From contig NZ_AP027144.1 of NCBI RefSeq assembly GCF_027925385.1, forward strand, positions 62,001-126,000: a stretch of DNA of 64,000 nt. The letters are read 5' to 3'. The stretch's first letter is position 1, and each line of letters opens with the position of its first letter. The DNA comes from Methylocystis iwaonis. Lineage in GTDB: Bacteria > Pseudomonadota > Alphaproteobacteria > Rhizobiales > Beijerinckiaceae. A program made the position numbers and the translations under genes. The notes under the pieces were generated by a model, which did not search any database, was not told the DNA's origin, and saw nothing but the letters and a program-made list of their open reading frames with translations. Positions 2,487 through 60,231 of the stretch are shown here, piece by piece.

Positions 2487-2494
2487 GGTCGATC

Positions 2495-9771: not shown

Positions 9772-9778
9772 AGGACGA

Positions 9779-12592: not shown

Positions 12593-12607
12593 AGCGAGCT
12601 TCCTCTC

Positions 12608-17040: not shown

Positions 17041-17215
17041 GCGAGAAAGCGAATGCGAACCACGAACGCCATCGAACGGGCGGTTCCGCGAAGCGCGCCG
17101 AAGAACCCGCCACATGATGGGCGCCTTTCAGGACAAGACCAGCATGGACCGCATCCTTTTCGCGGTCTTCACCAACAAGAAAATCACAAGGCGTCCGCTG
17201 CTCTTTCTCGCTGAC
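17041..17215 (+). pseudogene. IS256/mutator-type transposase 3' remnant
   Basis: A short scrap reads RTTNAIER in one frame and then MMGAFQDKTSMDRILFAVFT in another. This is the C-terminal signature of an IS256-like (mutator) transposase with a frameshift. Nothing else of the element remains. It overlaps the last codons of the sigma-factor gene on the other strand, so that gene's tail is probably derived from it. Confidence 0.6.
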
Positions 17216-19085: not shown

Positions 19086-20609
19086 CTACGGCCAGGGTCC
19101 CTTTTCGGCTTCGTAGACTGCGTTCGCCTGCGCGATTTCGACGTCGCGGGTTGTTGGCGACCAACCGCCGCCCAGCGCCTGATAGACGCCGGTCGCAGCC
19201 CGGAAGCGCGCCAGACGTGCCTGCGCAAGGCGATCCTGGCTCTGGAAGAGCGAGGTCTGCGTTATGGCGAGCGTGACGGTGTCGATGGTCCCCTCGCGCA
19301 GCCGCGCCAACGCTGTTGCATAGGCGCGGCGCCAGGCCGTGACTGAATCGGCCTGCAGCATTACCTGACGCTCCGTCTCGCGCGCGGCGACGAGCGCGTT
19401 CTCGACATCCGTCAAGGCTGAGAGAATCTGCTTGCGGTAAAGGGTCGCGAGCTCCTGATATCTGCCTTTCTGCAACTCATATTGTCCCTGCAAGGCGTAG
19501 CCGTCGAATAGAGGTTGCGCCAGTTCCGACCCGAATTGCCAGGCGACGGCCTCGGGCCGCAGCACGTTTTTCAGAAGCGCGCTTTGCAAGCCATAGAGTC
19601 CGGTGAGAGTGATCGAAGGAAAAAACGCGGCGCGCGCGCGAAGCACGGAAAATTCCTGCGAGGCGAGTCTTGCTTCCGCCAGCGCAATATCCGGACGGCG
19701 CAGCAACACTTCCGACGGCAAGCCGGGCGCGACAGCCGGAACAGCGAGCTTCGCCAGCGATCCGCCCTCGAGCAGCAAGTCCTCGGGCGCGCGGCCGAGC
19801 AGCACCGCAAGGAGGTTTTCCGTCTGCTGCAAATTTTGCTCGAGCGGCGGAATCGAGGCGCGTTGATCCGCGAGGATCGCCTGCTGCTGCGCGACGTCCA
19901 TCCCCGTCGCCGTGCCGACGCCGAACCGCAGCTTGATCGTCTCGAACACCTCGGTTGCGATCAGGACATTGTCGCGGGCGATGCGGAGACGGTCGCGCGC
20001 CGCCAGAGTCTGAAAATAGGCGTTCAGCACCGCGGCGATCGTCGTAATTTCCACGACGTCGCGGTCGAAGCGGCTGGCGTTGGCGAGAAGCCGCGCGGCG
20101 CTGGAAGCGTCCTGAATCTTGCCCCAAAAATCGATCTCATAGCTTGCGGTCAGACCAAGCTGAAAGAAGCCGAAGCTGACAGCCTGGAAATCAGAAGTGG
20201 CGAGGACGTCGGAACTCGCGGGCGTCAGTCCACCCGCGCCGGATGTGGGGACCAGGACCGTTCCCGGGGTGCGGTTCGTCTGGGCGATGTTATTCACCGA
20301 TAGAGACGGCCGCAGCGCCGCGCTCGACACCCTCGCCTGCGCGTCGGCCTGCTCTATCCGGGCGACCGCCGCGCCGATGTCGAGATTTTGATCGAGCGCC
20401 TGGTCGACGAATCCGGTCAGTTCCCTTGATCGGAAGAGCGCCGCGAAGTCGCGCGCAGCGCGCAGCGGCGGCGCGGAACGTGGTCTGGCTGCGCGAAATC
20501 GTTCGGGCGGCGGCGCGCCAAGACCCGGCTTCTCCCAGTCGAGATTGCAGCCGCTTCCGGCGAACGCCGACAGCATCGCGACCAGCAGCGTGGGAAGCCG
20601 CAATCTCAT
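19086..20609 (-). CDS. outer-membrane efflux lipoprotein (NodT/OprM family, OpmQ-like)
   Basis: A 507-residue TolC-type outer-membrane factor. A lipobox (LSAFAGSGC) places the mature N-terminal Cys near residue 21. The two OEP repeats are evident, with FVDQALDQNLDIGAAVARIE and EVLLRRPDIALAEARLASQE as family landmarks, and the protein ends YQALGGGW plus a short tail. It is the last gene of the long leftward operon, 4 bp after the permease stop, with a GGGAG site. With the adaptor, ATPase and permeases upstream it would form a MacAB-TolC-like tripartite pump; in Pseudomonas the equivalent PvdRT-OpmQ secretes pyoverdine from the periplasm. The substrate here is inferred to be the NRPS product. 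Confidence 0.88.
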   Translation of the reverse strand: MRLRLPTLLVAMLSAFAGSGCNLDWEKPGLGAPPPERFRAARPRSAPPLRAARDFAALFRSRELTGFVDQALDQNLDIGAAVARIEQADAQARVSSAALRPSLSVNNIAQTNRTPGTVLVPTSGAGGLTPASSDVLATSDFQAVSFGFFQLGLTASYEIDFWGKIQDASSAARLLANASRFDRDVVEITTIAAVLNAYFQTLAARDRLRIARDNVLIATEVFETIKLRFGVGTATGMDVAQQQAILADQRASIPPLEQNLQQTENLLAVLLGRAPEDLLLEGGSLAKLAVPAVAPGLPSEVLLRRPDIALAEARLASQEFSVLRARAAFFPSITLTGLYGLQSALLKNVLRPEAVAWQFGSELAQPLFDGYALQGQYELQKGRYQELATLYRKQILSALTDVENALVAARETERQVMLQADSVTAWRRAYATALARLREGTIDTVTLAITQTSLFQSQDRLAQARLARFRAATGVYQALGGGWSPTTRDVEIAQANAVYEAEKGPWP

Positions 20610-20612
20610 AGT

Positions 20613-21832
20613 CTACTCCCACCTCAGCGCGTCGATCGGATTCAATCCCGCCGCCCGACGCGCCGGGAGATAGCCGAAGAGCACGCCGACGCCGACGGAG
20701 ACCAACAGAGCCGCCACGACGCTCACCGGAGGGACAATGAGCGGCCAGTCCACCAGGAGCGCGACGAGCGCGCTTCCCGCGAGGCCGATACCAAGACCGA
20801 TGATCCCCGCGAGGACGCATAGCGTGACGGCCTCGACGAGAAACTGCAGGAGGATATCGCGCTTGCGCGCGCCGATCGCCATGCGCAGCCCGATTTCCTG
20901 CGTGCGCTCGGTGACGGAGACAAGCATCATGTTCATGATCCCGACGCCACCGACGAAGAGCGAGATCGCGGCGGCCGCGAGAGAAGCCAGGTTAGAGAGG
21001 TTTGCGTCGTGTTCAGCAGCTCGACAAATCGGGTCGAGTCGAAGACGTTGAGCTTGTCCTCCTGAGCGCCGACGAGATGTTTGCGCTCGCGTAATAGCGC
21101 AAGAACCTCCTCTTTGACCTTCTCGCGGTCGGCGCCGGGCCTGACTTTCATGTCGATGGAGCTGATTTGCCGGGGGCTCGACAATGCGGAATTCGGCAGA
21201 TGCGCGCGCGCCGTCGTGATCGGAAGATAGATGTAATTGTCCATATTCTCGCCGCCCATCGAACCGAGCCTCGTCCGCACGCCGATGATGCGAACCGGAG
21301 CGGCGCCGAGGCGCACGGTCTGATTCAGCGGCGACTCGTCCCCGAACAATTTTTCTTTGACGGTCGCTCCAAGAACGACCACTTTCGCGCCGGCGCGAAC
21401 CTCTTCGTCGTCGAAGAATTGGCCCTCGAGGAGTTTGACGCCGAAAACCGTCTGATAGGTCGCCTCGACGGCATAATATTTGGTGTTCCAGCTCTTATCG
21501 CCGGCGACCACGGTGACGCCGCCGTTTATTTCTCGCGACAGATATTGCAGGTTGGGGATGACCTCACGAATCGCATTAGCGTCCTGATCGGTTAGAACAA
21601 CCGCCACGCCGCGCCGGAGCGCATTCTCCACCTTGGTCGTGAATACGAAAAGCACATCCGTGCCCGCGCTGGCGATCTGCCGCTCGACGAGTTTATTCGC
21701 GCCCGCATTGGCCGCGCTCATGACGACGAGGCCGCTGACGCCGATGATGACCCCGATCGCCGTCAGGGCGCTGCGCAGCAGATTCGAGCGAAGCGCCGTG
21801 GCCGCCTCCTGCAGGAGCGTGCGCGGAGTCAT
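20613..21832 (-). pseudogene. MacB-like permease 1, frameshifted
   Basis: An N-terminal TM segment (LRSALTAIGVIIGVSGLVVM) and a MacB periplasmic domain are encoded from the ATG at 21832. The frame is lost near 21000, just as TM2 starts (TQTSLT then out of frame). The remainder (LFVGGVGIMNMMLVSVTERT through GLNPIDALRWE) lies in another frame down to 20613. Together they would give a permease of about 400 residues, very similar to the intact copy next door. A second start (ATG at 20936) could yield a separate C-terminal piece, but a half permease is unlikely to work. It could be a true one-base frameshift or a sequencing error. Confidence 0.8.
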
Positions 21833-21898
21833 GCCGTCGGCTCCTTTGCGAGCGCGCCGCGCCGTCGCTGCTTGCCGCCGCTGGAAAATCGCAAGGCG

Positions 21899-23119
21899 TT
21901 ACTTCCTCCTCAAAGCGTCGATTGGATTCAATCCCGCCCCGCGGCGCGCGGGTAGGTAGCCGAATATGATCCCGACGCTGACAGAAACCAGAGTGGCCGC
22001 CGCTGCGCCCAATGGCGGGATAATGAGCGGCCAGTCCACGAGGCGCGCCACGAGAACGCTTCCCGCGAGGCCGATCATGAGACCGATCAGTCCCGCAACA
22101 ACGGACAGCGTGACGGCTTCGGCCAGAAACTGCCGGAGTATGTCGCGCCGGCGCGCGCCGATCGCCATGCGAAGTCCGATTTCCCGCGTGCGCTCGGTGA
22201 CCGACACGAGCATGATATTCATGATCCCGACCCCGCCGACGAGAAGCAGGATCGCCGCCGTCGCGAGGAGAAGCCGGTTCAGCGTGGATTGCGTCGTGTT
22301 CAGCAACTCAACCATCTGCGTGAGGTCGATCACATCGAGCTTGTCCTCCTGCGCGCCGCGCAAATGCTTGCGCTCGCGCAGAAGCGCGAGAACGTCCTGT
22401 TTGACCTTCTCGCGGTTGGCGCCTGGAGAAACTTTCATATCGATCAGGCTGAGTTGCCGAGCGGTCGACATTTCCGAGTTTGGGATATGCGCGCGCGCCG
22501 TCTTGATCGGAAGAATGATGAAATTATCCTCATCGACGCCACCGAAGGAGCCGCGCTTCCTGCGCACGCCGATGATGCGGACGGGTATAGTGCCCAGGCG
22601 GACTGTCTGATCCAGCGGAGACGCAGTTCCGAACAGCTTTCTTGCGACTGTTGCGCCGATGACGATGACCTTTGCGCCGGAACGCACCTCGGCCTCGTCG
22701 AAAAACCGCCCCTCGGAAAGCTTGACGCCCCAAACCTGCTCGTATGACGCGTCGACTCCCCAATATTCGGTGATCCAGCTGGAGTTTCCCGCGACAAGCG
22801 TCACTTTACTGTAAACCTCGCGCGACAGATATTGTATGTTCGGGACCAGTTCACGGACCGCATTCGCGTCCTGGTCGGTTAGGACGACCACCGCGCCGCG
22901 CCGGAGCGCATTCTCCACCTTGGCCGCGCGAACGGCGAGCGCATCCGTGCCCTGATCGGCGATCTGGCGCTCGACGAGCTTGTTCGCGCCCGAATTCGCC
23001 GCGCTCATCACGACGAGACTGCCGACGCCGATGATGACGCCGAACGCCGTCAACGCGCTGCGTAGCAGATTCAGTCGAAGCGCGTTGATCGCTTCTCGAA
23101 AAAGCGTCTGAAGCGTCAC
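21899..23119 (-). CDS. MacB-like ABC permease 2 (FtsX-fold)
   Basis: A 406-residue permease with four TM segments: TM1 LRSALTAFGVIIGVGSLVVM, a large periplasmic MacB-PCD domain, then ATAAILLLVGGVGIMNIMLV, a second pair of helices, and the end GYLPARRGAGLNPIDALR. The start is the GTG at 23119, which overlaps the stop of the ATPase gene (GTGA) and has GGAG 8 nt upstream. It is the intact partner of a tandem duplicate. MacB proteins are mechanotransducers that push periplasmic substrates into TolC-like ducts; here ATPase and permease are separate polypeptides, unlike the fused PvdT or MacB. Confidence 0.9.
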   Translation of the reverse strand: MTLQTLFREAINALRLNLLRSALTAFGVIIGVGSLVVMSAANSGANKLVERQIADQGTDALAVRAAKVENALRRGAVVVLTDQDANAVRELVPNIQYLSREVYSKVTLVAGNSSWITEYWGVDASYEQVWGVKLSEGRFFDEAEVRSGAKVIVIGATVARKLFGTASPLDQTVRLGTIPVRIIGVRRKRGSFGGVDEDNFIILPIKTARAHIPNSEMSTARQLSLIDMKVSPGANREKVKQDVLALLRERKHLRGAQEDKLDVIDLTQMVELLNTTQSTLNRLLLATAAILLLVGGVGIMNIMLVSVTERTREIGLRMAIGARRRDILRQFLAEAVTLSVVAGLIGLMIGLAGSVLVARLVDWPLIIPPLGAAAATLVSVSVGIIFGYLPARRGAGLNPIDALRRK

Positions 23120-23856
23120 GCCGTTGGCTCCTTCGCACGCGCGCCGCTGCGACGCTGACACACGTCTTCGACAATTTCGCCGTCGCAAAAGCGCAGCAGC
23201 CGGTCGGCATAGGCCGCGATATCAGGCTCGTGCGTGATGACGACCAGCGTCAACCCTTCTTCGTTGAGCGACGAAAGAAGCGACATGATCTCATGCGAAT
23301 TATGCGTGTCGAGCGCCCCCGTCGGTTCGTCGGCGATGACGATTTTGGGATCATTCACCAGCGCGCGGGCGATCGCGACGCGCTGTTGCTGTCCACCGGA
23401 AAGCTGATTGGGCCGATGGCTGAGTCTGTCGCCGAGCCCGACCTGCTGCAAGCGCGCGCGCGCGCACTCGAAGGCGTCGACGCCCGGTCGTGACGAATAG
23501 GCGAGCGGCAGCATGACGTTTTCGAGCGCCGACATCCGCGCCATCAGATTGAACTGCTGAAATACAAAGCCGATGCTAAGATTGCGCAAATGCGCAAGAT
23601 CATCGCCCGTCATCGACGCCACCGCCTGGCCGTGGATCTTCAAGACGCCGGACGTCGGCGTATCGAGCGCCCCGATCAGATTCGCCATCGTCGATTTGCC
23701 AGATCCGGACGCGCCCATGATCGCGACAAACTCGCCGCGCGCTACGGAAAAGCTCACCCCGCGCAAAGCCTGCACTTTCTCGTTCCCAAGATTGTAAGTC
23801 TTGGTCAGCCCCACGCATTCGATGGCGGGATCTGGCGACGCGGAGGACACTGTCAT
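23116..23856 (-). CDS. ABC transporter ATPase (MacB/LolD family)
   Basis: A 246-residue ATP-binding subunit. Walker A is GASGSGKST, the signature is LSGGQQQRVAIARALV, Walker B is IVIADEPTGALD, and the H-loop follows in VVITHEPD. The subfamily (MacB/LolD) is shown by the N-terminal LTKTYNLGNEKVQALRGVSF. It overlaps the adaptor gene upstream and the permease gene downstream by 4 bp each, so the pump parts are made in fixed order. It presumably drives either or both tandem permeases. Confidence 0.92.
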   Translation of the reverse strand: MTVSSASPDPAIECVGLTKTYNLGNEKVQALRGVSFSVARGEFVAIMGASGSGKSTMANLIGALDTPTSGVLKIHGQAVASMTGDDLAHLRNLSIGFVFQQFNLMARMSALENVMLPLAYSSRPGVDAFECARARLQQVGLGDRLSHRPNQLSGGQQQRVAIARALVNDPKIVIADEPTGALDTHNSHEIMSLLSSLNEEGLTLVVITHEPDIAAYADRLLRFCDGEIVEDVCQRRSGARAKEPTA

Positions 23857-25070
23857 TTCTCCGGCGTCGCGGCGATTGTCGCCCGCAGGATCGCCGCGTC
23901 GCCTGGCTTCAGATCGCCGTCGAGAATCTCGGTCGCCGCGTCACCCTTGACGCCCAGGCGAACGGATCGCGACTTCAGCGAATTTGTCGCGTCGAGAACC
24001 CAGAGGCGTGTCTGCCCCTCGCGCGGCGCGGCGTCGTCCCCAACGGCGGCGGAGGGATGAAACCGTAACGCTTCGTTTGGCGTGTTCAGCACATTCTCGC
24101 GTCGGGCCGTCACGATCCGAACCGTCGCCGTCATATCCGGAAAAAGCCGCATGTCCGGGTTTTGCGCGCGAACGACGACCGTGTAGGTCACGACGCCGCT
24201 CGTTTTCGTCGCCGCCAGCCGTATCTGCTCGACGACGCCGTAAAAGGTCTCGACGGGAAAAGTCTCGACGGTGAACTTCACTTCGTCGCCGACGCGGATG
24301 GCCCCGACATCCGCCTCGTCGACCTGCGCCAGAATCTGTATTTGCGACAGGTCCTGCGCGATCTGGAACAATACGGGCGTCTGATACTCCGCCGTCACGG
24401 TCTGCCCGCGCTGCATCCTTCGGTCGATCACCACGCCGTTGATTGGCGATCTGATCAAAGTGCGATCGAAATTGATCTGCGCTTGATCGCATTCGGCCTG
24501 CCGCAGCGCGACAGTCGCTTTCGCCGACTCGAGGTCAGCTTGCGCCGCGCTGAGTTCATGGCGAGTGGCGCCGCTCTCCGTTTGCGCCTGATCGAGCTGC
24601 TGGCGGGAGACGCCAGCGGCCGGCGCCAGCGCGCTGTAGCGCCCGACATTGCGATCGAGCAGACCGAGCTGCTTTTGCAGCTTCGCCATCGCCGCCTCGC
24701 GCCGCGAGACGTCCGCCCTGGCGATCGCGAGATTAGCCGAGGCGGCCTGCACTTTCGCGTCGAACGGCGCGCGATCGATCACGGCGATGAGATCGCCCTG
24801 TTTCACTTTGCTGTTGAAATCGACCTTCATCTCCGTGATCGGCCCGGAAACTTGCGAACCCACATCGACCGTCACCAGCGCTTTGACCGCGCCAGACGCC
24901 GTAACGCTCCGCTCGACGACGCCGCGGCCAAGGAGTTGCGTTTGGTAGAGGCGCGTCGCGTCGGCGTTTCCGCTACCGAAAGACCACCAGAGAGCCAGGC
25001 ACAAAACCACCGCAGAAAAAACGAGCGCGCCGACGATCGAAATTTTCTTTCCCTTTGCGTCGATCCTCAT
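23853..25070 (-). CDS. MacA-like periplasmic adaptor (membrane fusion protein)
   Basis: About 405 residues from the ATG at 25070, which has GGAG 10 nt upstream; an upstream start at 25106 would add 12 unlikely residues. It has an N-terminal membrane anchor (IVGALVFSAVVLCLALWWSF) and a lipoyl half-motif region VTVDVGSQVSGPITEMKVDF. A long coiled-coil hairpin (NLAIARADVSRREAAMAKLQ onward) and the second lipoyl half IRSPINGVVIDRRMQRGQTV come next, then beta-barrel and membrane-proximal domains. This order is typical of MacA/PvdR adaptors for ABC-type tripartite pumps. It overlaps the ATPase gene by 4 bp. Confidence 0.9.
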   Translation of the reverse strand: MRIDAKGKKISIVGALVFSAVVLCLALWWSFGSGNADATRLYQTQLLGRGVVERSVTASGAVKALVTVDVGSQVSGPITEMKVDFNSKVKQGDLIAVIDRAPFDAKVQAASANLAIARADVSRREAAMAKLQKQLGLLDRNVGRYSALAPAAGVSRQQLDQAQTESGATRHELSAAQADLESAKATVALRQAECDQAQINFDRTLIRSPINGVVIDRRMQRGQTVTAEYQTPVLFQIAQDLSQIQILAQVDEADVGAIRVGDEVKFTVETFPVETFYGVVEQIRLAATKTSGVVTYTVVVRAQNPDMRLFPDMTATVRIVTARRENVLNTPNEALRFHPSAAVGDDAAPREGQTRLWVLDATNSLKSRSVRLGVKGDAATEILDGDLKPGDAAILRATIAATPEK

Positions 25071-25463
25071 TGGAAAGAAACTCCAGTAAACGCCAGTATA
25101 CGACAAATCACGCGCGTGATCCTTGCCGCCGTACCCCGTTCGCGCGCTCCGATCGTTGTCGGTAATCTATTCGAGATTCGCGAGAGCGCATTTGAAAACT
25201 GATTGTCCCGGCCTAAAGAGAGCTGGCTCAGCGGCGCGACGAAGGAGCGTCCTTGCCCGTCCTCCTCGATCGTGAAACGGCACATGAGTTCATGATCCGG
25301 TCCGCCGTTGATGACGCCCGGAAGCATCAATCGCGGCGACGCCGAAAGGGAAACGAGCCGGTCGCGCAGAAACGCGATAAGCGGCGCGCGCGCATAGGCC
25401 AAAACGCGCCGGGCGCGAAATTCTGCGGCGGAGCAGTTGCATATCGATATTGCGGGAGCGCAT
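25067..25463 (-). pseudogene. unknown small protein, apparently frameshifted
   Basis: Eleven bases after the PepSY stop there is a strong AGGAGG site and ATG at 25463. The frame it opens (MRSRNIDMQLLRRR) soon becomes low-complexity. A second frame starting before it carries convincing sequence, AEFRARRVLAYARAPLIAFL, then RLVSLSASPRLMLPGVINGG and HELMCRFTIEEDGQGRSFVA. The simplest reading is a single gene of about 120-130 residues with a one-base shift 40-60 nt after the start. I do not recognise the family. Position between PepSY and the efflux adaptor in the same operon suggests a part in handling the NRPS product, but nothing in the sequence names a function. Confidence 0.5.
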
Positions 25464-25473
25464 AAATTCCTCC

Positions 25474-26727
25474 TTAGCGTAAAAGCCTGAAATACTCAGC
25501 GGGTCTCCTGCTCGCCGGCACACCCGCAAGCGTAGCTCCAGTTACGTGGCGCTTCCGCGCGCGCCGCTTCCGCCACCAGATGTAAACGCCCGTGCCGGAC
25601 AGCATCGTTATGACGAGGCCGAGGGCGCAGACAAAAATCTTGTAAGGCATGCCGAACAGATTTGCGGTGTGAAGCTGTACGAGCCACGTCGTCACCGTCG
25701 TCCCGCTCTGCTCTCCCGTAGGGATTTTGACGCCGAGCAACTTTCCTTCGAAGGCGTCGAAATAAACCGACGTCGATCCATATTTGTCGCCAATGTCTCT
25801 TGACGAGCGCACGCGATACTCCCAGCCGCCGAGCTGCTTGGAATTGTATAGCGCGAGAACGCGTTCGATCGTTAAGCCGCGCTTGGTAGCCTCGGTCGCC
25901 ATCAGGCGCTCTCCGGTCGCCAGCGCCTCGTCCCATGACATCGGCTCCCGGCCCGACGGCGCCGGCGGCTTGACGTCACTCCGCGCCCACATCGGCTGCT
26001 CATAATCGAGCACGAATTGCGTCACGCGCGTGTAAACGAAATTGAGATCCATATAGACACTGGACCAGGCGAATATCAGCAGCATGACCCAGAGCCAAAG
26101 TCCGAAGGCGCGGTGGAGATCGAAATTGACGCGGTAGGCTGAAGAGCCGCGCCACTTAATGAGCCAGGCCGGCTTCCAGCGCGCGAGAAACCCTTTGCGC
26201 GAATGGCCGGTTGGCGTTGGCAGCGTCAGGTAGACCCCGACGAAGCAGTCGACCGTCCATAAGAGCGCGACAACGCCAAGTATCCAGTCGCCGATTCCGC
26301 TCATCGCCAGATACATGTGTAGGGCGTAGACGAAGGGCATGATGTCGGTCTTCGTCTTCGGCAGTCCATGCCATGCCGCGCGCCCGCGTTCATGTCCGTC
26401 GATCGAATCGAGATGGATGTATTCAAAATCGAGCGGCGCGGCGCCCACACGCGCCTCCATGCCGATCATCACCGAGCCGGGATAGCCGAGATATACGGTC
26501 TTCGTTTGCGCCTGCGGAACGATCGCCTCGGCGCGGCGCGCCAACGTCGCGGCATCGAGCGTGATCCCGGGCCGATCGCCCGGATACATCTCCGGCGTCA
26601 GCCAATGATTAATTTCGAGCCAAAATGCCAGCAGGCTTCCCGTCAGCCCGACGACGATGAGAAAGCCAGCCATCACGAGGCCCGCCCAGCGGTGAAGCCA
26701 GACCCAGAACGCGCGCGTCAACATCAA
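25474..26727 (-). CDS. PepSY-associated membrane protein, siderophore locus 2
   Basis: A 417-residue PepSY TM protein. It shows the N-terminal helix motif (VWLHRWAGLVMAGFLIVVG) with GLTGSLLAFWLEI, a periplasmic PepSY region, conserved HMYLAMSGIGDWILG and FDLHRAFGLWLWVMLLIFAW helices and the closing GTGVYIWWRKRRAR. It resembles FoxB-like proteins that act on ferrisiderophores at the inner membrane. It lies 73 bp after the TonB receptor of the NRPS locus and is clearly a paralogue of the PepSY protein at 11360-12592, though not a close one. Its partner metallophore is inferred from position. Confidence 0.9.
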   Translation of the reverse strand: MMLTRAFWVWLHRWAGLVMAGFLIVVGLTGSLLAFWLEINHWLTPEMYPGDRPGITLDAATLARRAEAIVPQAQTKTVYLGYPGSVMIGMEARVGAAPLDFEYIHLDSIDGHERGRAAWHGLPKTKTDIMPFVYALHMYLAMSGIGDWILGVVALLWTVDCFVGVYLTLPTPTGHSRKGFLARWKPAWLIKWRGSSAYRVNFDLHRAFGLWLWVMLLIFAWSSVYMDLNFVYTRVTQFVLDYEQPMWARSDVKPPAPSGREPMSWDEALATGERLMATEATKRGLTIERVLALYNSKQLGGWEYRVRSSRDIGDKYGSTSVYFDAFEGKLLGVKIPTGEQSGTTVTTWLVQLHTANLFGMPYKIFVCALGLVITMLSGTGVYIWWRKRRARKRHVTGATLAGVPASRRPAEYFRLLR

Positions 26728-26800
26728 AAGGCTCCTCGATACGAGAGGGGCTAAGAGACCGCCCCGTTTCGGGACGGCCTGAGGTCGCGAAGGTTCGCGC

Positions 26801-29206: not shown

Positions 29207-29279
29207 ATTCCTGATGCGGCGTTTGAGCCGCTAATATCTCAATGGGAGCGAGGCGCACGGCCTCGAACGGCGATGAGAG

Positions 29280-29714: not shown

Positions 29715-29872
29715 CTTTCCTACCCCTGTGGTCGAATCTGGGAAGCGAGATTCACCGCGGCTCCGACGATGAAATCGTCGTCGAAACTACGGTAAAGTTC
29801 AAGAATTGAATCGAGCATTACGGAACCGAACTGCCACACTGTTGCAAAATTGTTACTCAGCCGCGTATCAAA

Positions 29873-45775: not shown

Positions 45776-45821
45776 GTTGGAAGCCCCTGCTGCTTTCGTG
45801 AATGTCGCGCGCTGCGCGCCA

Positions 45822-46772
45822 TCACGAGACGTAATTGAGATAGGACCGGTAATACGGGAAAATCCGGTCCCGACGCACGCCGGTCCAAAGTCCGAATGCG
45901 ATGAGCGCGTTGTAGTAGACGTTCTTCAGCGGCATACCTTGCGTTAAGGCGAGAATGCCTCTGGCTGCGCTACTCTTCGTGTGCCAGTCGACATTCAACG
46001 ACATGGCGGCGTCGAGACTGCGCACATGGTGCAGCATTCCGGATGGCATGAAGAAGACGTCACCCGGCTCGACGATGACCTGCTGCGGCCTCGCGTGACG
46101 AAAAAGTGGATGCATATCGAAATCAGGGGACTCGGGATCGACGGCGGACCACCGCCAATCATGGACGTAACAATAGTTCCGCTGATCGTAATCCAACACA
46201 GTGAAACACTTTCTTCCGCGCAGTTGGAAGAAGAGGTTGTGTGTCAACAGACAATCGAAGTGCAGCGGCGTATAGCTCCAGGATGGGCCCAAAAAGAACT
46301 GTGCGAAGTCCGTCCAACTCGCGCCGTACCAGCTCGGAAAGAAATTCTGCGGAAACGCCGCAAGGCCCGCGGCGGCGTCCGGAAAGACGCTCGTCAACGG
46401 CATATCATGCAGATAAGCCGGTCTTCTTGCGCGATCGTCGCCAGCCGACCGTCTCATTTCATATTGTTCGATCTCGTCGAGATATGCGGCGATCTTCGAT
46501 TGTCGCGTCAATATCGCGCCACCTGTGCGCCAATCCTTCAGCAAAACGGTGTTACCGCCGGATTGTTCCCGGAGACGATCGAATGTCCAGCTTTTGAACG
46601 CCACAGTGTCCGCAAGGGCGCGTTTAATGAGCACCGGCCGGTTCTTCGCCACATAGCGATCGGCGAATTCCACGCTAGTCAGATGCGGCACCGTATCGAC
46701 GCCGTGCCCGTCAATTTCATCCTGCGCGGCGATGTGACTGCGCGACTGCGCTGTCTCGGTCGTAATGCTCAT
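45822..46772 (-). CDS. JmjC/cupin_8-type Fe(II)/2-oxoglutarate oxygenase
   Basis: A 316-residue oxygenase of the cupin_8/JmjC family. The facial triad is seen as His171-x-Asp173 ([10 protein letters not shown]) and His248 or His249 (MLHHVRSLD). [12 protein letters not shown] supplies the basic residue expected to hold 2-oxoglutarate, and SLNVDWHT closes the barrel. The start overlaps the mbtH stop by ATGA, and the NRPS starts 47 bp downstream, so it is a biosynthetic enzyme of this operon. Likely it hydroxylates an amino acid, free or carrier-bound; beta-hydroxylation of the predicted His residue would create a metal ligand, but the substrate is inference. Siderophore beta-hydroxylases described so far are mostly TauD/SyrP-like, a different subfamily. 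Confidence 0.8.
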
Positions 46773-46996
46773 TGCGCGGAGCCTCGCGCGTCGGCGTCCA
46801 TCTGCTTGCGCAGGCTCAAGGGGCGCATATCGGTCCACACTTCCTTGATGTGAGCGAGGCACTCGGCCTTCGGTCCGGACTTGCCGACTGTGCGCCAACC
46901 AGGCGGTAACGGCTTGTATTCCGGCCAGATTGAATATTGCTCTTCGTCGTTGACAACGATCGCGTAAATTGTTTGATCTTCTTCGTCCCACGCCAT
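46769..46996 (-). CDS. mbtH: MbtH-like NRPS partner protein
   Basis: A 75-residue MbtH-family protein with the hallmark [19 protein letters not shown] and the downstream [12 protein letters not shown]. MbtH proteins bind and stabilise adenylation domains of NRPSs. The ATG at 46996 has a strong AGGAGG site, and the stop overlaps the start of the oxygenase. Position directly ahead of the NRPS indicates that it serves its A domains. Confidence 0.95.
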
Positions 46997-47053
46997 ATCG
47001 CCCTCCTGCTCATTATTCCCAGCAGCAATTGCCGCAACCCTCGCCGCAATTTG

Positions 47054-48538
47054 CTACTGACGACGCGCTGCGACGACAGATGCGCCGAACCGCTCGAGAA
47101 TTGCATCGATCTCATCCTGTGCGATGATCAGCGGCGGCAAGAATCGGACGACGGCTCCAAAGCGGCCGCCGAGCTCCAGAATCAGGCCACGCCGCAAGCA
47201 TTCGTGTTGGATTGTTTTAGCGAGCGTTGGCGCGGGATCAGGCGCCGGCGCGTTCGTCGCGTCTCCATCGACAATCTCGACCCCCACCATCAGGCCGCGT
47301 CCGCGCACGTCGCCGATGCATGGATGCTCCTCCGCAATAACCCGAAGACCCGCCATGAGACGCTCGCCCATCTTCGCGGCGTGCGAATCGAGAGAATTCT
47401 GTCTGACGTAGGAAATGGTCGCCGCGCCGGTCGCGAATGCGAGCTGATTGCCGCGGAATGTTCCTGCATGCGCGCCCGATTTCCATTGATCGAGGTCGCG
47501 ATGATAGACCACCACTGAAAGTGGGAGACCGCCGCCGATCGCCTTCGAGAGAACGACGACATCTGGCTCGATTCCGGCATGTTCAAAGGCATAAAGGCGG
47601 CCCGTTCGGCCAAGCCCGGTCTGAACCTCGTCAACGATGAGCGGGATTCCACGCGCCTTAGTGATGTCCCTTAGTTGACGAAGCCATCCGTCCGGCGCCG
47701 CGATCACCCCGCCTTCGCCCTGAATCACTTCGATTATCATTCCCGCGGGCGTCAGAACGCCGCTATTCGGATCGTCGAATAGGGTCTCGATGTATCTCGC
47801 GCTGATCGCCGCGCTCGCCTCGCCGCCGATACCGAAAGGACAACGATATTCTGAAGGGAATGGGAGAAACTGCACCTCTGCTCCTAGGCCCCCAACGGCG
47901 CGCCTTGGCGTCGGCTCCCCTGTTAGGCTTAGGGTCGCGTGCGTCATGCCATGATACGCCCCGCTAAACGAAACGAGCCCTCTCCGGCCAGTCGCTGTTT
48001 TCACCAATTTTAGCGCGGCTTCGACTGCGTCAGCGCCCGAGGGGCCGCAAAACTGGATCTTGTAATTTTCCTGGAATGCCGCCGGCAGACTGTCAAAGAG
48101 TTCACGCGTGAACCGATCTTTTAAGGGAGTTGGCAAGTCCAGAATTTGAAGCGGCGGTTCTTCCGCCAGAGCGGACTGAATCGCCTCAATGACGACCGGG
48201 TGGCTGTGACCAAGTGCGAGCGCGCCGGCGCCGGCAAGACAATCGATAAAGGTTCGCCCTTCTGTGTCTTCGACGTAAATTCCCCTGCCCCGTTTTAGCG
48301 CAAGGGGAATTTTGCGCGGATACGTCCTCGCATTGGATTCGATCTCAGCCTGACGCGTCAGAAGGTCGTTTCCGAAGGATGAATATAAGGGAAATTGCGC
48401 CTTGTCGGCGCCGATCTGCAAGTCTCGATCGAGTTCATCGATCGATCCTGCCTGCACGCCCTGGGGGTTGAACGTCGACTTCAAATCACCTGAACGCGGC
48501 GCATCACCGCCTGCCAGCGTTTGCGCTCCTTCCGCCAT
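47054..48538 (-). CDS. L-2,4-diaminobutyrate:2-oxoglutarate aminotransferase (PvdH/Dat-like)
   Basis: A 494-residue class III PLP aminotransferase. It makes L-2,4-diaminobutyrate (Dab) from aspartate semialdehyde and glutamate. Family landmarks are FIDCLAGAGALALGHSHPVV, LDLPTPLKDRFTRELFDSLP, CGPSGADAVEAALKLVKTAT, the SGAYHGMTHATLSLTG block and the PLP lysine in VVVLSKAIGGGLPLS. The ATG at 48538 has an AAGAAGG site; a longer frame upstream adds a basic stretch without homology. It is the first gene of the leftward operon, equivalent to PvdH of pyoverdine synthesis. It supports the reading of A2 as Dab-specific. An ectoine-type EctB role is less likely, as no ectA or ectC is present. Confidence 0.9.
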   Translation of the reverse strand: MAEGAQTLAGGDAPRSGDLKSTFNPQGVQAGSIDELDRDLQIGADKAQFPLYSSFGNDLLTRQAEIESNARTYPRKIPLALKRGRGIYVEDTEGRTFIDCLAGAGALALGHSHPVVIEAIQSALAEEPPLQILDLPTPLKDRFTRELFDSLPAAFQENYKIQFCGPSGADAVEAALKLVKTATGRRGLVSFSGAYHGMTHATLSLTGEPTPRRAVGGLGAEVQFLPFPSEYRCPFGIGGEASAAISARYIETLFDDPNSGVLTPAGMIIEVIQGEGGVIAAPDGWLRQLRDITKARGIPLIVDEVQTGLGRTGRLYAFEHAGIEPDVVVLSKAIGGGLPLSVVVYHRDLDQWKSGAHAGTFRGNQLAFATGAATISYVRQNSLDSHAAKMGERLMAGLRVIAEEHPCIGDVRGRGLMVGVEIVDGDATNAPAPDPAPTLAKTIQHECLRRGLILELGGRFGAVVRFLPPLIIAQDEIDAILERFGASVVAARRQ

Positions 48539-48761
48539 GGCGCACCTTCTTTCACACTTACCGGCTGACGCAAGATGACGCCCCCTATTGGGTGAGACGA
48601 TTTTCGACGACATTCACGCCAAAAAAAATCAGGATGGGCTTTCCGAGCTGACGACGCAGCTTGCGGGCTGGGCGCGCTGGTTGACGCTCTGAATTAATTT
48701 GGCCGGATTCGGTCGCTCGAAACGTCTCTCTTAGCGAGAAGAGAAGCGGCGCTACGCGTTT
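48539..48761. promoter_or_regulatory. divergent promoter region of the NRPS locus
   Basis: This 223-bp gap separates the leftward biosynthetic/uptake operon from the rightward exporter/acylase operon, so both promoters must lie here. On the minus strand GAAAAT at about 48601-48606 followed by CGTC some 19 nt later loosely resembles a FecI/PvdS-type ECF promoter, but spacing is wider than usual. I could not find a convincing Fur box. A poly-A run lies at 48621-48628. Confidence 0.4.
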
Positions 48762-50474
48762 GTGCCGCGAAAGTGCTGGGAGAGGCGCTTGTTCGACGAA
48801 GCAGCGGCAACGAGCCCGGCCTCCGTGCTTGGCCTTATGCGCGTTTTCGCAGCGTCCAAGCTCCTATTCTTATCTTCTGTCGCGACCGGGTTGATCGGCG
48901 GCTCCGCCAGCGCATGGCTATTGGCCCTTGTCACTCAAACGATTGAGTCGCCTCAAAAAGAGACTGTGGATCTTGCGTTGTCGTCCTTTGCGCTCTGCTT
49001 GCTCTCTCTTGCTTCCAGCGCCGCTTCGCAGATTCTCTTGTCTCAAATCGCTCAAGAAAATCTTTTCAAAATCCGGCTCTGGCTCAGCCACAGCGTTCTC
49101 GCCGCGCCGCTTCGCAACATTCAGATACTCGGGCCCCACAAATTGATGGCTGCGCTGACGACCGACGTTGATAATGTCGTGACCGCTCAAGAAGTCCTTC
49201 CGACGCTTTTCATCGAGGGTTCAAAAGTTCTAGCCGTCTTTGTCTATCTTTGGTCCGTCTCGCCGCCGTTCCTCCTATTTGTCTTCGGCTTTGTCGCGTT
49301 GAGCGTGTTTATTCTATATGTCCCGCAGAAATGGGCATGGTCATTCCTGGATCGCGCACGTCTAACGGAGAACGCTATATTTGGGCACTTTCGCGCCGCC
49401 ACGGAAGGCGGCAAGGAGCTCAAGATGAGTGCGGAGCGTCGGCGCGCTTTTCTCGACGATGAATTGCTCCGCTCCGCTCATGCGTTGAAGATGCAACGCA
49501 TGAAGGCCTTCGTTATTTTTGTGTTGGTTGATCGCTCGGCGGAAATGTTATTTTTTATTCTTCTCGGCGTGATGCTCTTCATTGCGCCGCGTTACGCTTC
49601 CGTTTCGCAAGGCACTTTGACGAGCTTCGTGCTCGCCATCATTTTCTTAGGCGGTCCGCTTACCGCGGTCGGCGGCGCGCTTCCTACAATAGGGAAAGGC
49701 GTCGTTGCTTTACGTAACATTGAGAGACTGGGTCTAAGCCTCTCCAAGGAGACCGATGTTAACTTTCGTACAACGCCCACCTTTGCGCTCACTCGGCCTG
49801 CGGCCCTGGAGCTCAGCAAAATTACGCATCTCTATCGGAATGAAGAATCTGAAGTGCGTCATCAACTCGGCCCGATCAACCTTCGCATTGACCCTGGCGC
49901 GCTTCTGTTCGTGACGGGCGGCAATGGGAGTGGAAAAACTACGCTGGCGCTGATTTTACTTGGCTTGTTTCCCCCCGATGACGGCGAGATCAAACTGGGT
50001 GGCCGCCGGGTTACGGACGAAAATCGCGAATCCTATCGCCAGAATTTCTCGGCGGTGTTTGCGGACGCATACGTGTTCGATTCCCTTCTTGGCTATTCCG
50101 GCATCGAGTCGCAGGCGCGGGCGCAGGAAATGCTCGTTGCGTTGAAGCTCGAAAACAAACTTCAGATCAGTGACGGCCGATTCTCAACGACGGAGTTATC
50201 GCGGGGGCAGCGTAAGAGACTTGCGTTGCTAACGGCGTATGTCGAAGATCGACCGTTTTATTTGTTCGATGAATGGGCAGCCGAGCAGGACCCGCAGTTC
50301 CGAGACGTTTTTTACCACCAACTGCTGCCGGAGCTCAAGGCGCGTGGCAAGACCGTGATCGTCATCACCCATGACGATCGCTATTTCCATATTGCTGATC
50401 AGGTATTGCGAATGGACGCCGGCAAAATCGTATCTTTTGCCGAACAACCTCGAGCGACCGAGTTGCAATCGTGA
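48762..50474 (+). CDS. PvdE/SyrD-type cyclic-peptide ABC exporter (fused TM-ATPase)
   Basis: A 570-residue half-transporter with six TM segments (about residues 30-310) and a C-terminal ATPase. Walker A is GGNGSGKTT, the signature is LSRGQRKRLAL, Walker B is PFYLFDEWAAEQDP, and the H-loop is VIVITHDDR. FVTGGNGSGKTT and the degenerate DEWAAEQ block mark the PvdE/SyrD peptide-exporter subfamily. In Pseudomonas PvdE carries the acylated precursor into the periplasm. The GTG at 48762 has no clear ribosome site; TTG at 48789 or ATG at 48837 are alternatives. It overlaps the acylase gene by ATGA-type coupling at 50471-50474. Confidence 0.9.
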   Translation: MPRKCWERRLFDEAAATSPASVLGLMRVFAASKLLFLSSVATGLIGGSASAWLLALVTQTIESPQKETVDLALSSFALCLLSLASSAASQILLSQIAQENLFKIRLWLSHSVLAAPLRNIQILGPHKLMAALTTDVDNVVTAQEVLPTLFIEGSKVLAVFVYLWSVSPPFLLFVFGFVALSVFILYVPQKWAWSFLDRARLTENAIFGHFRAATEGGKELKMSAERRRAFLDDELLRSAHALKMQRMKAFVIFVLVDRSAEMLFFILLGVMLFIAPRYASVSQGTLTSFVLAIIFLGGPLTAVGGALPTIGKGVVALRNIERLGLSLSKETDVNFRTTPTFALTRPAALELSKITHLYRNEESEVRHQLGPINLRIDPGALLFVTGGNGSGKTTLALILLGLFPPDDGEIKLGGRRVTDENRESYRQNFSAVFADAYVFDSLLGYSGIESQARAQEMLVALKLENKLQISDGRFSTTELSRGQRKRLALLTAYVEDRPFYLFDEWAAEQDPQFRDVFYHQLLPELKARGKTVIVITHDDRYFHIADQVLRMDAGKIVSFAEQPRATELQS

Positions 50475-52891
50475 TAAGCGCCGCTAGTAGAACCATGCTT
50501 CGGAGAAGCGCGCTTGTCGTGTTTGGCGGCACCGCCTCCTTGGTTATCGCCTGCTACGCCGCAGTGTATTCTCTTCCATCTATTCAATTTCCCTCTGGAC
50601 CACGGAACGCGCCCGGGCTTAGCGCGGCTGTTTCCATCAATCTGGATCATTACGGCGTCCCGCATATCGAAGCGCGAACACGCGAGGACGCCTTTACAGC
50701 TCTTGGCTACATGACGGGCCGGGATCGTCTTTTTCAAATCGACATCATGCGCCGCAAGACCGTCGGCCGGCTCGCGGAGATTCTCGGCGAGCCGCTCGTG
50801 GAAGATGATCGCTTGAACCGCACCTTCGGCTTTTCGCGTCTGGCGGAACAGATCCTTGCGCGGCTGCCAGAGTCACAACGGACGGTGCTCGCCGCTTACG
50901 CGGCGGGCGTCAATCAGGCGATGGACGATCTGTTGACGTTGCCGTTCGAATTCTGGGCGCTCAATTACAAACCGGAACGATGGTCGCCCAAGGACAGCAT
51001 TCTCGTGGCGCTCAATCTTTCAACGCTATCTTACGCCGTCGAGGAGGAACGCATGGCGAGCGTCATGCGTGAAGCGCTCCCGGCGGCTGTCGTTTCGTTT
51101 TTGACGCCGGATAGCGACTGCTACAATGAAAAGGTCGCTCCAAGCGGCGCAAACATTTGCGCCGATACTTCGCGCCCTCCTGATGAACTGCGCACGCTCC
51201 TTCATCAATCGACCAAAAGAGCCACCAAATCTGGTGCGATCCGAGAGATGAGAGCTGCGCGCGGTTCAAACGCCTGGGTCATTGGCGGCGGCAAGACACG
51301 TGATGGTCGCGCAATAGTCGCAAACGACATGCATCTCACTCTTGGATTGCCAAACATCTGGTACCAAGCCGATCTCCGCTACGGCCCGCATCGCATGGAA
51401 GGGCTTTTTCTGCCAGGCTTGCCGATGATGATCGTGGGATCCAATGGTCATATCGCTTGGGGGCTCACCAGCGTGGACGGCGATTTTTCGGATCTCGTCC
51501 GGCTGCGTAAAGACCCCGGCGACAACAATCGCTATGCGACGCCGAAAGGCGTTCAAGCATTTTCTTCCCGGTCGGAGAGCATCGCTGTAAGAGGCAAGGA
51601 GAGCGTCTCCGTCGACGTTCGGGATACGATATGGGGACCCGTTCTACCTCAACCGCTTCTCGGGGAAGAAGTCGCGGTTGCATGGTCGATGTTGGACGCC
51701 TCGGCGACGAATCTCAACCTGTTGCAATTGGATGAGGCGCGGACAGTTCGTGAAGCTCTGTCGATCCTGCAATCCGCGGGAACCCCGCCGCTAAATGGTT
51801 TGGTGGCTGACGACCGGGGGTCGATTGGCTGGACGCTCATGGGCAAAATCCCAGCGCGGCGCGGGCTTCGAGGAATTTATTCGGAACATTGGGACGCCAG
51901 CGAAGTTGGTTGGGACGGTTTTCTATCGCCTTCGGCGCTTCCAACGATTGTTGATCCTCCAGAGGGTTATATCGTCAGCACAAATCAGCGCATGTTGCCA
52001 ACCTCAGTGTTTTCGACGCGCTTGAGTCAAGATTATCCGGGCGGATTTCGCGCTTGGCGCGTTGACGACGCTCTCAGGGGTTCATCGAAGCTCGGCGTCG
52101 CTGAAATGGTCGCCTTGCAGCTCGATACAAAGACCGATTTCTATCGCTTCTATCGGGACATTGCCCTCAGAGCGCTAAAGGGCCCTGCTTCACAAGGCCA
52201 GCCCGAAGCCGCGCGGCTTCTCGCGGCCTTGGAATCTTGGGACGGTCGCGCAGAACCCCCAAGTAAGGGGTTGGCGTTGATCACGGAGTTCAGGCAAACT
52301 CTGCTCCAAGAGATATTGTCTCCAATTTTCGAAGATTGCCGGCGGTTGGATCCGGGTTTCACCTACAGATGGTCCAACTCCGACGTCCCGTTGCAAGCCA
52401 TCATTCGCAGCGGCGATCCGTCATTCCTGCCACAGTCAGAAAATTCGAGCGATTGGACCAATTTTCTGCAAGCTGCGCTGGCCGAAAGCGCGAAGCGCCT
52501 TGAGGCGAAACACGGTCGTCCAATATCGGAAATCAGTTGGGGCGACATAAACCAAGTCGCGATCGCTCATCCATTTTCGAGGGTGGCTCCATTTCTGTCA
52601 GCACTTCTTGATTTGCCGCGTTCGCCCGTCGCGGGCTGCCCGCAATGTGTGCGACTATATGAGGTTGCCGACGGCGAGGGAGTCGGTGCCACCGCCCGAA
52701 CCGTCATCGTTCCCGGGGAGGAACAAAAAAGCGTGATCCAATTCGCGGGAGGCCAATCCGGTCAGTTCGGCTCGGCGCACTACTCTGATCGGCAGCAGGA
52801 CTGGGTTTCCGGCCGCGCTACGTCTCTGCGCTCTCAGGAAGTCGTTTCCACGATCCTGTTGACGCCGGCGGGCGCTCGCTACAATCAATAG
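50471..52891 (+). CDS. periplasmic penicillin-acylase-family Ntn hydrolase (PvdQ-like)
   Basis: An 806-residue proenzyme. An N-terminal anchor/signal (SALVVFGGTASLVIACYAAV) sends it to the periplasm. The alpha chain carries DHYGVPHIEARTREDAFTAL and GYMTGRDRLFQIDIMRRKTV. Autocatalytic cleavage is expected before Ser266 in ARGSNAWVIGG, the new N-terminal nucleophile of the beta chain, followed by IVANDMHLTL. The C-terminal block IQFAGGQSGQFGSAHYSDRQ is conserved in the family. PvdQ removes the fatty acid from the pyoverdine precursor; coupling here with a PvdE-like exporter and a FAAL-initiated NRPS suggests the same job. Acyl-homoserine lactone or antibiotic acylase activity is the alternative. 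Confidence 0.9.
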   Translation: MISAASRTMLRRSALVVFGGTASLVIACYAAVYSLPSIQFPSGPRNAPGLSAAVSINLDHYGVPHIEARTREDAFTALGYMTGRDRLFQIDIMRRKTVGRLAEILGEPLVEDDRLNRTFGFSRLAEQILARLPESQRTVLAAYAAGVNQAMDDLLTLPFEFWALNYKPERWSPKDSILVALNLSTLSYAVEEERMASVMREALPAAVVSFLTPDSDCYNEKVAPSGANICADTSRPPDELRTLLHQSTKRATKSGAIREMRAARGSNAWVIGGGKTRDGRAIVANDMHLTLGLPNIWYQADLRYGPHRMEGLFLPGLPMMIVGSNGHIAWGLTSVDGDFSDLVRLRKDPGDNNRYATPKGVQAFSSRSESIAVRGKESVSVDVRDTIWGPVLPQPLLGEEVAVAWSMLDASATNLNLLQLDEARTVREALSILQSAGTPPLNGLVADDRGSIGWTLMGKIPARRGLRGIYSEHWDASEVGWDGFLSPSALPTIVDPPEGYIVSTNQRMLPTSVFSTRLSQDYPGGFRAWRVDDALRGSSKLGVAEMVALQLDTKTDFYRFYRDIALRALKGPASQGQPEAARLLAALESWDGRAEPPSKGLALITEFRQTLLQEILSPIFEDCRRLDPGFTYRWSNSDVPLQAIIRSGDPSFLPQSENSSDWTNFLQAALAESAKRLEAKHGRPISEISWGDINQVAIAHPFSRVAPFLSALLDLPRSPVAGCPQCVRLYEVADGEGVGATARTVIVPGEEQKSVIQFAGGQSGQFGSAHYSDRQQDWVSGRATSLRSQEVVSTILLTPAGARYNQ

Positions 52892-52922
52892 CGGCTTGGA
52901 AGCGCGGCACTGAAACCAGCCG

Positions 52923-53115
52923 ATGTTTGAGCGCGATCGAAAGTCCCTGTCGCTATACTGTTTTCCATGCGCCGGCGGGAGCGCAAACTCGTTCCTGCGA
53001 TGGCACCCGAGTCTTCCGCCATGGATCAGAATTCGTCCGGTCGAGCTACCGGCTCTGGTGCAAACGGTGGGAGAGGGGCATACTCGCTCGATACGAGGAT
53101 CGATATCGCCGGGGT
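52923..53115 (+). pseudogene. type II thioesterase, truncated and frameshifted
   Basis: Thirty-one bases after the acylase stop, an ATG opens a typical external NRPS thioesterase N-terminus: LYCFPCAGGSANSFLRWHPS, then LPPWIRIRPVELP. After VELP, where GRG is expected, the frame shifts by one (the other frame reads GSGANGGRG) and the sequence ends about 53115 at an IS6-like scrap. The GxSxG nucleophile, Asp and His are all lost. The gene would have edited misprimed carrier domains of the NRPS; the cell must use another enzyme or do without. Confidence 0.8.
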
Positions 53116-60226: not shown

Positions 60227-60231
60227 GCGCG

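Follow-up and report, generated by a model that had tools for sequence, protein, structure and literature searches.

The window analysed here, a stretch of 64,000 nt from Methylocystis iwaonis (NZ_AP027144.1, positions 62,001-126,000, forward strand), carries an NRPS gene cluster together with genes for export, uptake and tailoring. In profile searches, 12 cluster genes pass thresholds that are either curated or set at very low E-values, and the same set was found again in other genomes; it is not a chance assembly. Neither Rfam nor tRNA scans, run with default thresholds, gave a hit in the window. The features are, in order of position:

17184..17894, minus strand: ECF sigma factor, link to the cluster uncertain (nearest model a methanobactin-type sigma, 118 of 350 bits)
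19086..20609, minus strand: outer-membrane efflux protein, OEP (PF02321, 142 bits)
20613..21832, minus strand: MacB-type permease 2, split (PF12704 and PF02687 on separate ORFs in different frames)
21899..23188, minus strand: MacB-type permease 1, intact (profile matches)
23116..23856, minus strand: MacB-type ATPase (profile matches)
23853..25106, minus strand: MacA-like membrane-fusion protein (PF16576 and RND_mfp, 143 bits)
25474..26727, minus strand: PepSY_TM protein, possible periplasmic/inner-membrane reductase (PF03929, 185 bits)
26801..29206, minus strand: TonB-dependent siderophore-type receptor (TIGR01783, 284.7 bits, cut-off 223.5)
29873..45775, minus strand: NRPS, FAAL-T-(C-A-T)x4-TE, 5300 aa (Pfam, FAAL searches, A codes, own-HMM domains)
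45822..46772, minus strand: JmjC/Cupin_8 2-oxoglutarate oxygenase, proposed Dab hydroxylase, between the MbtH and NRPS genes
46769..46996, minus strand: MbtH-like NRPS partner (PF03621, 80.6 bits; ATGA overlap with the next gene)
47054..48613, minus strand: diaminobutyrate-2-oxoglutarate transaminase, Dat, Dab supply (PRK06938, 718.4 bits, cut-off 671)
48614..48761, no strand: divergent intergenic region between the Dat and exporter genes (longest ORFs)
48762..50474, plus strand: PvdE/SyrD-type cyclic-peptide ABC exporter (TIGR01194, 432 bits, cut-off 286.2)
50471..52891, plus strand: membrane-anchored Ntn-hydrolase acylase, proposed to remove an acyl cap (PF01804, 521.9 bits)

Much of what the original prediction had read into the locus by comparison with pyoverdine was borne out by these searches, namely a PvdH-like Dab supply, MbtH, a PvdE-type exporter, a TonB receptor with a PepSY protein, and an acyl-loaded synthetase that is indeed one protein of four modules, with an N-terminal FAAL domain, four C-A-T units and a TE. 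The ornithine hydroxylase and formyltransferase (PvdA and PvdF in pyoverdine), which it had described as absent, gave no match in the window with OB3b OrnOx and PvdF queries at the thresholds used, and domains of the PvdP/PvdO chromophore type were not seen among the domain-scanned window ORFs (general annotation). Its gene list was incomplete in that the JmjC/Cupin_8 gene had been overlooked, and because the A-domain codes had been left unread, the common X-Dab-His core was missed. The two units do diverge, but 148 bp lie between the longest ORFs, and the proposed 223-bp control region (48539-48761) is obtained only with a Dat start at an internal Met; likewise, of the proposed span of 19086-53115 the part beyond the end of the acylase holds no assigned system gene. 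A PvdR/T-OpmQ-like efflux set is present as a MacA/MacB-type pump with OEP, the second MacB-like permease being divided between ORFs 20933-21832 and 20613-20936, both of which lie in a single frame in the sister strain Sn-Cys. The nearby ECF sigma factor exists as well, but whether it belongs with the NRPS is uncertain, since it also adjoins another TonB receptor/PepSY_TM pair and an NIS cluster of the staphyloferrin-B-like kind, and it may serve this neighbouring siderophore cluster instead. A box scan for promoters returned no Fur, Irr or RirA-type matches; CueR-like boxes matched weakly, with up to 4 mismatches and without a shuffle control, and none was convincing.

The A codes of the window NRPS are, in order, DVWHFSLIDK, DIWELCADDK, DSALIAEVWK and DLYNNALTYK, from which the synthetase reads as a predicted FAAL-Ser-Dab-His-Ala-TE line. 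The DIWE-type code we take to be that of Dab, a reading supported by the co-occurrence of Dat, which is present with every complete-stretch cluster having such a module and missing from the AOB4 stretch, which has none. Among NCBIfam models, the FAAL stretch scores highest with PRK05691, at 605 bits, far below the cut-off of 4090 of that long model; a FAAL-initiated NRPS, as in the pyoverdine pathway, is nevertheless present. DSALIAEVWK is given as a His-activating code, with beta-OH accepted, in a portion of PMC12283262, and the window has with it the His-activating module of beta-OH-Asp/His NRP siderophores. The TauD-family beta-hydroxylase named in the antiSMASH rule of PMC12971057, as far as an extract of that paper goes, was not found, PF02668 giving 0 matches in the whole genome. 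Receptor and uptake genes lie alongside the synthetase, as expected of a metallophore locus, in the window and in the gammaproteobacterial clusters.

We read 17 JmjC-bearing clusters, the window included, all from methanotrophs of the Alpha- and Gammaproteobacteria; G534, which also carries JmjC but lies at the edge of a contig, stands outside the counts, and two clusters (G529, G521) are cut by contig ends. The counts are not independent events, since some clusters nearly duplicate others (Sn-Cys the window, G568 wino1), and module order across separate NRPS proteins presumes colinearity. All 15 clusters readable at module 2 have Dab there; at module 3, 12 of 13 have His, the remaining one, G447, having Dab instead yet keeping the cluster. 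Module 1 is Asp in six, Ser in five, His in four and unassigned in one of 16. Chains comprise 3 to 12 residues, with only the N-terminal X-Dab-His core in common and the remainder variable. An exporter and an acylase go with the FAAL-NRPS in all 13 complete JmjC-bearing clusters (the window; Sn-Cys, whose exporter is split; M. bryophila; G025; and nine gammaproteobacterial ones), a conservation on which the original prediction had made itself depend; in G587 and G507 the acylase was not seen within the fetched stretch. All nine complete gammaproteobacterial clusters contain a thioester reductase and an internal PepSY_TM gene, eight an internal TonB receptor, and seven end at residue 3. Next to the His module lies a TauD gene in M. 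bryophila and Methylocapsa and a CmlA gene in G025 and G444.

The window acylase belongs to the penicillin-amidase family, with S266, H288 and N505 invariant across three orthologues, and its N-terminal hydrophobic stretch suggests a periplasmic location, where it would deacylate an acyl-peptide. The original prediction had called it PvdQ-type; the Ntn acylase stands, but PvdQ membership was dropped, the PvdQ equivalog NF051460 giving 69.6 bits against a cut-off of 950. Among solved structures, its match to D-succinylase spans almost the full length (194.7 bits), that to PvdQ only a part (best 55.8 bits). In a tree of 44 rows, made by a quick method with SH-aLRT support only, in which OB3b forms a very long branch and G444 is a partial row, the 11 methanotroph acylases form one clade (SH-aLRT 100). 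The wider lineage is also found in Nitrospira, Sorangium and Poribacteria; the idea that it is tied to copper users was dropped, since His is not at position 3 in the complete non-clade clusters read (two from Nitrospira and AOB4).

The JmjC protein shares its fold and the metal-binding HxD...H motif, invariant in 11 of 11 sequences, with JMJD5/JMJD7-type hydroxylases in a structural comparison covering part of the JmjC families; unlike these, it is bacterial and lies within an NRPS operon. The known substrates of JMJD5/JMJD7-type enzymes are Arg and Lys of proteins, and by analogy the most likely residue for the JmjC protein to hydroxylate is Dab, which is basic as well. Dab is also the better target because the code of module 2 ends in ...C-ADDK in 15 of 15 readable JmjC-bearing clusters and in ...T-ADDK in five genomes without JmjC (Methylocapsa and Nitrospira G438, G439, G440 and G443), an association confounded by descent; G447 additionally has one T-type Dab module further along the chain. 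Our first idea, that JmjC replaces TauD on His, was weakened by G447, which has JmjC but no His module, and by M. bryophila, G025 and G444, where JmjC occurs together with a TauD or CmlA gene next to the His module. A Sorangium JmjC match (52.6 bits) was left out of the counts.

From genes, domains, A codes and their conservation, we infer an order of steps, a product, a hydroxylation target and a metal. Dat would supply Dab, the FAAL domain would load a fatty acid, and the NRPS would assemble acyl-Ser-Dab-His-Ala, which the TE would free; Dab would most likely be hydroxylated by the JmjC protein. The PvdE-type exporter would then carry the acyl-peptide into the periplasm, where the Ntn acylase would strip the cap and bare the N-terminal amine; the MacAB-OEP-type pump would secrete the deacylated peptide, and the TonB receptor and PepSY_TM protein would serve uptake and metal release. 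Capping and uncapping might in this way keep the metal site closed inside the cytoplasm. We regard the acylation-export-deacylation logic as quite likely and consider it probable that the product is a metallophore, whereas for the pathway as laid out in full, from Dat to uptake, we lean only slightly in favour. The sequence of making, exporting, deacylating and secreting an acyl-peptide that had originally been proposed matches the gene content and is partly supported overall.

As to the metal, Cu or Ni is our leading guess and also our boldest reading, and it is a tentative one. It stems from the fact that a free H2N-X-Dab-His, with His at position 3, as the codes and the order of modules predict for the window and for 12 of the 13 JmjC-bearing clusters, would have the form of an amino-terminal Cu(II)/Ni(II) (ATCUN) motif. 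One could speculate, with considerable doubt, that two methanotroph classes share an NRPS chalkophore or nickelophore, a tripeptide X-(hydroxy)Dab-His masked by a fatty acyl group, whose ATCUN site is made only by periplasmic acylase unmasking; this would explain siderophore-style capping and uncapping as masking of the metal site, and the JmjC enzyme would join the NRPS-tailoring repertoire as a new type of hydroxylase. G447, which keeps the cluster without His at module 3, counts against a pathway to a Cu/Ni ATCUN metallophore. Like the proposed product, methanobactin is a peptide metallophore of methanotrophs, and its metal is copper, but it is ribosomal and made by MbnB/C. MbnB was not found at the NRPS locus on contig C3; the genome's mbnB lies on contig C2 (451 bits, cut-off 325) and, given the nearby NIS siderophore cluster, neither a copper nor an iron need is unmet in this genome. 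Copper acquisition by methanotrophs without methanobactin genes is the question on which the cluster bears: according to a part of PMC3621798, some methanotrophs have no recognisable methanobactin, and any chalkophore of theirs must differ. In gammaproteobacterial methanotrophs without mbn genes, the product could be this long-suspected non-methanobactin chalkophore.

The main rival to a Cu/Ni metallophore is an iron siderophore, itself possible but doubtful, in which Fe(III) would be held by His and/or Dab in beta-hydroxylated form together with further donors, possibly with at least two peptides per iron, and in which the cap would do no more than tether the molecule to the membrane during synthesis and transport, as has been proposed for pyoverdine. 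The locus encodes a PepSY_TM protein, a type with links to the reduction of ferric siderophores, next to a receptor whose nearest solved relatives are iron-siderophore receptors (FhuA/FptA/FpvA-like). TauD or CmlA beside the His modules of the four related clusters named above is a siderophore feature; beta-OH-His is a known chelating group (PMC12971057, in the same extract), and the longer chains of M. bryophila and G025 give more donors. The window, however, lacks hydroxamate genes by the OB3b queries as well as any TauD in its genome, and a peptide of 3-4 residues would probably be short of hard donors for the usual hexadentate Fe(III) site. If iron is bound instead, the clusters would still represent a family of siderophores, as yet undescribed, that are very small peptides and are shared by methanotrophs of both proteobacterial classes.

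We consider it improbable that the product is no metallophore at all but an acylated prodrug, such as an antibiotic or surfactant, activated by the periplasmic acylase, or, in the gammaproteobacterial clusters with reductive release, a peptide aldehyde protease inhibitor. Lipopeptides, too, are exported by transporters of the PvdE type and by MacAB pumps, so that both types present here would suit such a product, as would the thioester reductases. Precedents are glidonin and telomycin, non-siderophore lipopeptides that are detoxified or matured by acylases (PMC10587159, in part). The TonB receptor and PepSY_TM genes within the gammaproteobacterial operons, between two NRPS genes, fit uptake instead. 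Still less probable is a decaying cluster with no present function, of which the disrupted frame of permease 2 and the damaged copy in Sn-Cys would be the signs. Sn-Cys has a split exporter, a split sigma gene, broken FAAL and OEP frames and an inversion, and hence does without the pathway; orthologues at 1e-90 occur in 1 of 397 genomes of the order, namely the window itself, and at 1e-20 in 9 of 61 relatives, remote homologues included. In the window, on the other hand, the frames of the 15.9-kb NRPS, exporter, acylase, Dat, JmjC and receptor genes are open, permease 1 is intact, and single-base differences could be sequence errors.

With the metallophore preferred, the compact gene set conserved in methanotrophs gives a concrete predicted structure, acyl-X-Dab-His converted to H2N-X-Dab-His, and we found no description of such a methanotroph cluster family in the open-licence literature. 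Pyoverdine (PvdL FAAL, PvdE, PvdQ, PvdRT-OpmQ, PvdH) resembles the window system in its FAAL-capped start, TIGR01194-type exporter, Ntn acylase, MacAB-OEP-type pump, Dab supply and TonB receptor, but the window acylase is of another Ntn lineage, and the pyoverdine core is Glu-Tyr-Dab instead of X-Dab-His. Corrugatin, ornicorrugatin and histicorrugatin are likewise acylated peptides with Dab (or Orn), and these lipopeptide siderophores carry beta-OH-His; unlike the window system, they keep the acyl chain and use TauD hydroxylases. They have eight residues according to a section of PMC4528175. Crochelin of Azotobacter chroococcum, work on which is cited where PMC10587159, in the part available, lists acylases of siderophore maturation, shares exporter, MbtH, NRPS and TonB receptor, but its putative cluster (pAcX50f stretch) shows no acylase in 41 kb and A codes unlike those of the window. 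That no described metallophore has this combination, as originally supposed, holds in our searches of the open-licence literature, although the general scheme is not unique: the nearest published case, a cluster with acylase on plasmid pOB3b3 of Methylosinus trichosporium OB3b, appears as a putative siderophore in a portion of PMC12811070. It, too, is a methanotroph NRPS cluster with cyclic-peptide exporter, Dat, MacB, TonB receptor and sigma/FecR genes. Unlike the window, OB3b has an ornithine oxygenase and PvdF, its A codes in the fetched stretch are Gly/Asp/Thr-like with no His code, and its acylase is PvdQ/MacQ-like (362-671 bits to solved PvdQ and relatives), sharing 27% identity over 199 aa with that of the window.

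What appears to be new here is that an X-Dab-His core, assigned by the first three NRPS modules, is conserved in methanotrophs. In the window, the corresponding cluster is laid out on both strands:

Minus strand, in order: diaminobutyrate transaminase (Dat), MbtH, JmjC/Cupin_8 protein, NRPS (29873-45775), TonB receptor, PepSY_TM protein, MacA, ATPase, two MacB-type permeases, outer-membrane efflux protein (OEP)
Plus strand: cyclic-peptide exporter (48762-50474) and acylase (50471-52891)

The NRPS (5300 aa) has the domain order FAAL-T-(C-A-T)x4-TE, and alignment to GrsA numbering gave the A-domain codes DVWHFSLIDK, DIWELCADDK, DSALIAEVWK and DLYNNALTYK, the first, second and fourth of which we take to be the specificity codes for Ser, Dab and Ala. 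Since DSALIAEVWK is counted among 14 His-activating A domains in PMC12283262, whose abstract gives 2051 A domains overall, module 3 is assigned to His, and the predicted product is acyl-Ser-Dab-His-Ala.

Relatives were sought by a scan of genome contigs with three orthologues; the exporter was present in 29 of the best 80 loci kept (flanks ≤10 kb, many contigs short), and full stretches were fetched for representative loci. The JmjC protein reached at least 340 bits in 10 of the 19 genomes of the acylase lineage. Across the 251 genomes of the order to which Methylomicrobium sp. wino1 belongs, it was found at 1e-60 in 14, six of which are already part of the former count. Of 18 JmjC-bearing clusters, 17 were read, with near-copies among them (Methylocystis sp. 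Sn-Cys/window and G568/wino1). Module 1 is variable (Ser 5, Asp 6, His 4 and one without assignment; 16 readable), module 2 carries Dab with a Cys-type pocket code (15/15 readable), and module 3 carries His in 12 of 13 readable cases, the exception being G447 with Dab. Methylocapsa palsarum also reads Ser-Dab-His, though it has no JmjC gene. While these N-terminal three residues are kept, the tail comprises zero to nine residues: presuming that separate NRPS proteins act colinearly and that all synthetases lie inside the fetched stretches, chains have three residues in Sn-Cys and seven gammaproteobacterial clusters, four in the window, G437 and G447, 11 in G025 and 12 in M. bryophila, where the last nine codes are all Ser. 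The M. bryophila plasmid (L026/L012/L115) encodes an NRPS ORF of 11271 aa with one His module and nine modules in a row with the identical Ser code DVWHISLVDK.

The original prediction was a pyoverdine-style scheme. Exporter and acylase both accompany the FAAL-NRPS in 13/13 complete JmjC-bearing clusters; in the fetched stretches of G587 and G507 they were not seen. The postulated route (acyl-peptide, export, deacylation) was largely right. The assignment of the acylase to the PvdQ type was wrong, as it belongs to another family, and the pyoverdine pathway was not adopted as the identity of the cluster. Eleven acylases, from 10 JmjC-bearing clusters and Methylocapsa, form a single clade (SH-aLRT 100, 44-row tree). 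We would file the cluster as a variant among NRPS metallophore pathways using acylation-deacylation. In the open-licence literature, we found no account of this methanotroph FAAL-NRPS/acylase X-Dab-His family under the topics methanotroph siderophore, pyoverdine, FAAL/acylase, ATCUN and chalkophore.

In gammaproteobacterial clusters the genes run, with minor variations, MbtH-JmjC-NRPS(FAAL-X-Dab)-TonB receptor-PepSY-NRPS(His)-thioester reductase-acylase-exporter-Dat. As the thioester reductase occurs in 9/9 complete clusters of this group, the peptides made by them should be released as aldehydes or alcohols; in the four Methylocystis clusters, a TE is the final domain. A related cluster, exporter-Dat-acylase-MbtH-TauD-NRPS, is present at Nitrospira loci (L039, L040 and others); it includes a FAAL and a number of modules for Dab, Ser and Asp. 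On Rhizobium tropici pRtrCIAT899b (L117, 15013-15954), a JmjC homologue (37%) is surrounded by IS elements; an ectB-type Dab transaminase lies ~11 kb off, and no NRPS is annotated within the 31-kb stretch.

A free amine together with His at position three constitutes the ATCUN motif, a strong Cu(II)/Ni(II) site, as in Asp-Ala-His of albumin. Since the acylase would free precisely the N-terminal amine of an X-Dab-His peptide, we propose that the fatty acyl cap masks this site until it is unmasked in the periplasm, and Cu(II) or Ni(II) may be the metal. Iron may be the metal instead, as the receptor of the window cluster is of the siderophore type and hydroxylase genes adjoin the His module elsewhere, either TauD (M. 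bryophila, Methylocapsa) or CmlA (G025, G444), which suggests beta-hydroxylated His in these four. However, the whole window genome has no TauD, no match to OrnOx/PvdF lies within the window, and the window peptide would be very short for iron. What counts against copper is mbnB in the genomes of the window strain, Sn-Cys and M. bryophila (3/19 over the cut-off); the other core carriers among the 19, every gammaproteobacterial one included, fall below it. A second NRPS ORF (2525 aa; G000:C2, ~54-59 kb) lies close to the mbnB contig region of the window genome. CmlA-type diiron hydroxylases near His modules in G444 (L156, 10265-11869), G025 and AOB4 (L159-L160 region) suggest that beta-hydroxylases were recruited repeatedly and independently.

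The sister strain Sn-Cys (97% alike, as is its acylase) carries a clean, reciprocal inversion of ~32 kb (L031, L111, L112) with junctions at window positions 17700 and 49713/49714 that show no obvious repeat. The inversion cuts the ECF sigma gene (17184-17894) as well as that of the exporter. The Sn-Cys NRPS lacks ~2.9 kb of that of the window and has three modules (Ser-Dab-His-TE), its FAAL and OEP reading frames are broken, and permease 2 is one frame there but split in the window. There may be assembly errors in either strain.

Immediately past the acylase, the window holds ISL3-type and DDE_3-type transposase ORFs (53300-56194), followed by an AcrB-type RND pump with a CusB/HlyD-type adaptor (57110-61713). 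At its other end lies a staphyloferrin-B-like NIS siderophore cluster (327-11002), with a TonB receptor and PepSY_TM protein beyond it:

327-1403: PLP enzyme
1443-2486: ornithine-cyclodeaminase-like protein
2495-8977: three IucA/IucC proteins
8596-9771: aldolase-like protein
9779-11002: Orn/DAP decarboxylase
11360-14806, minus strand: TonB receptor and PepSY_TM protein
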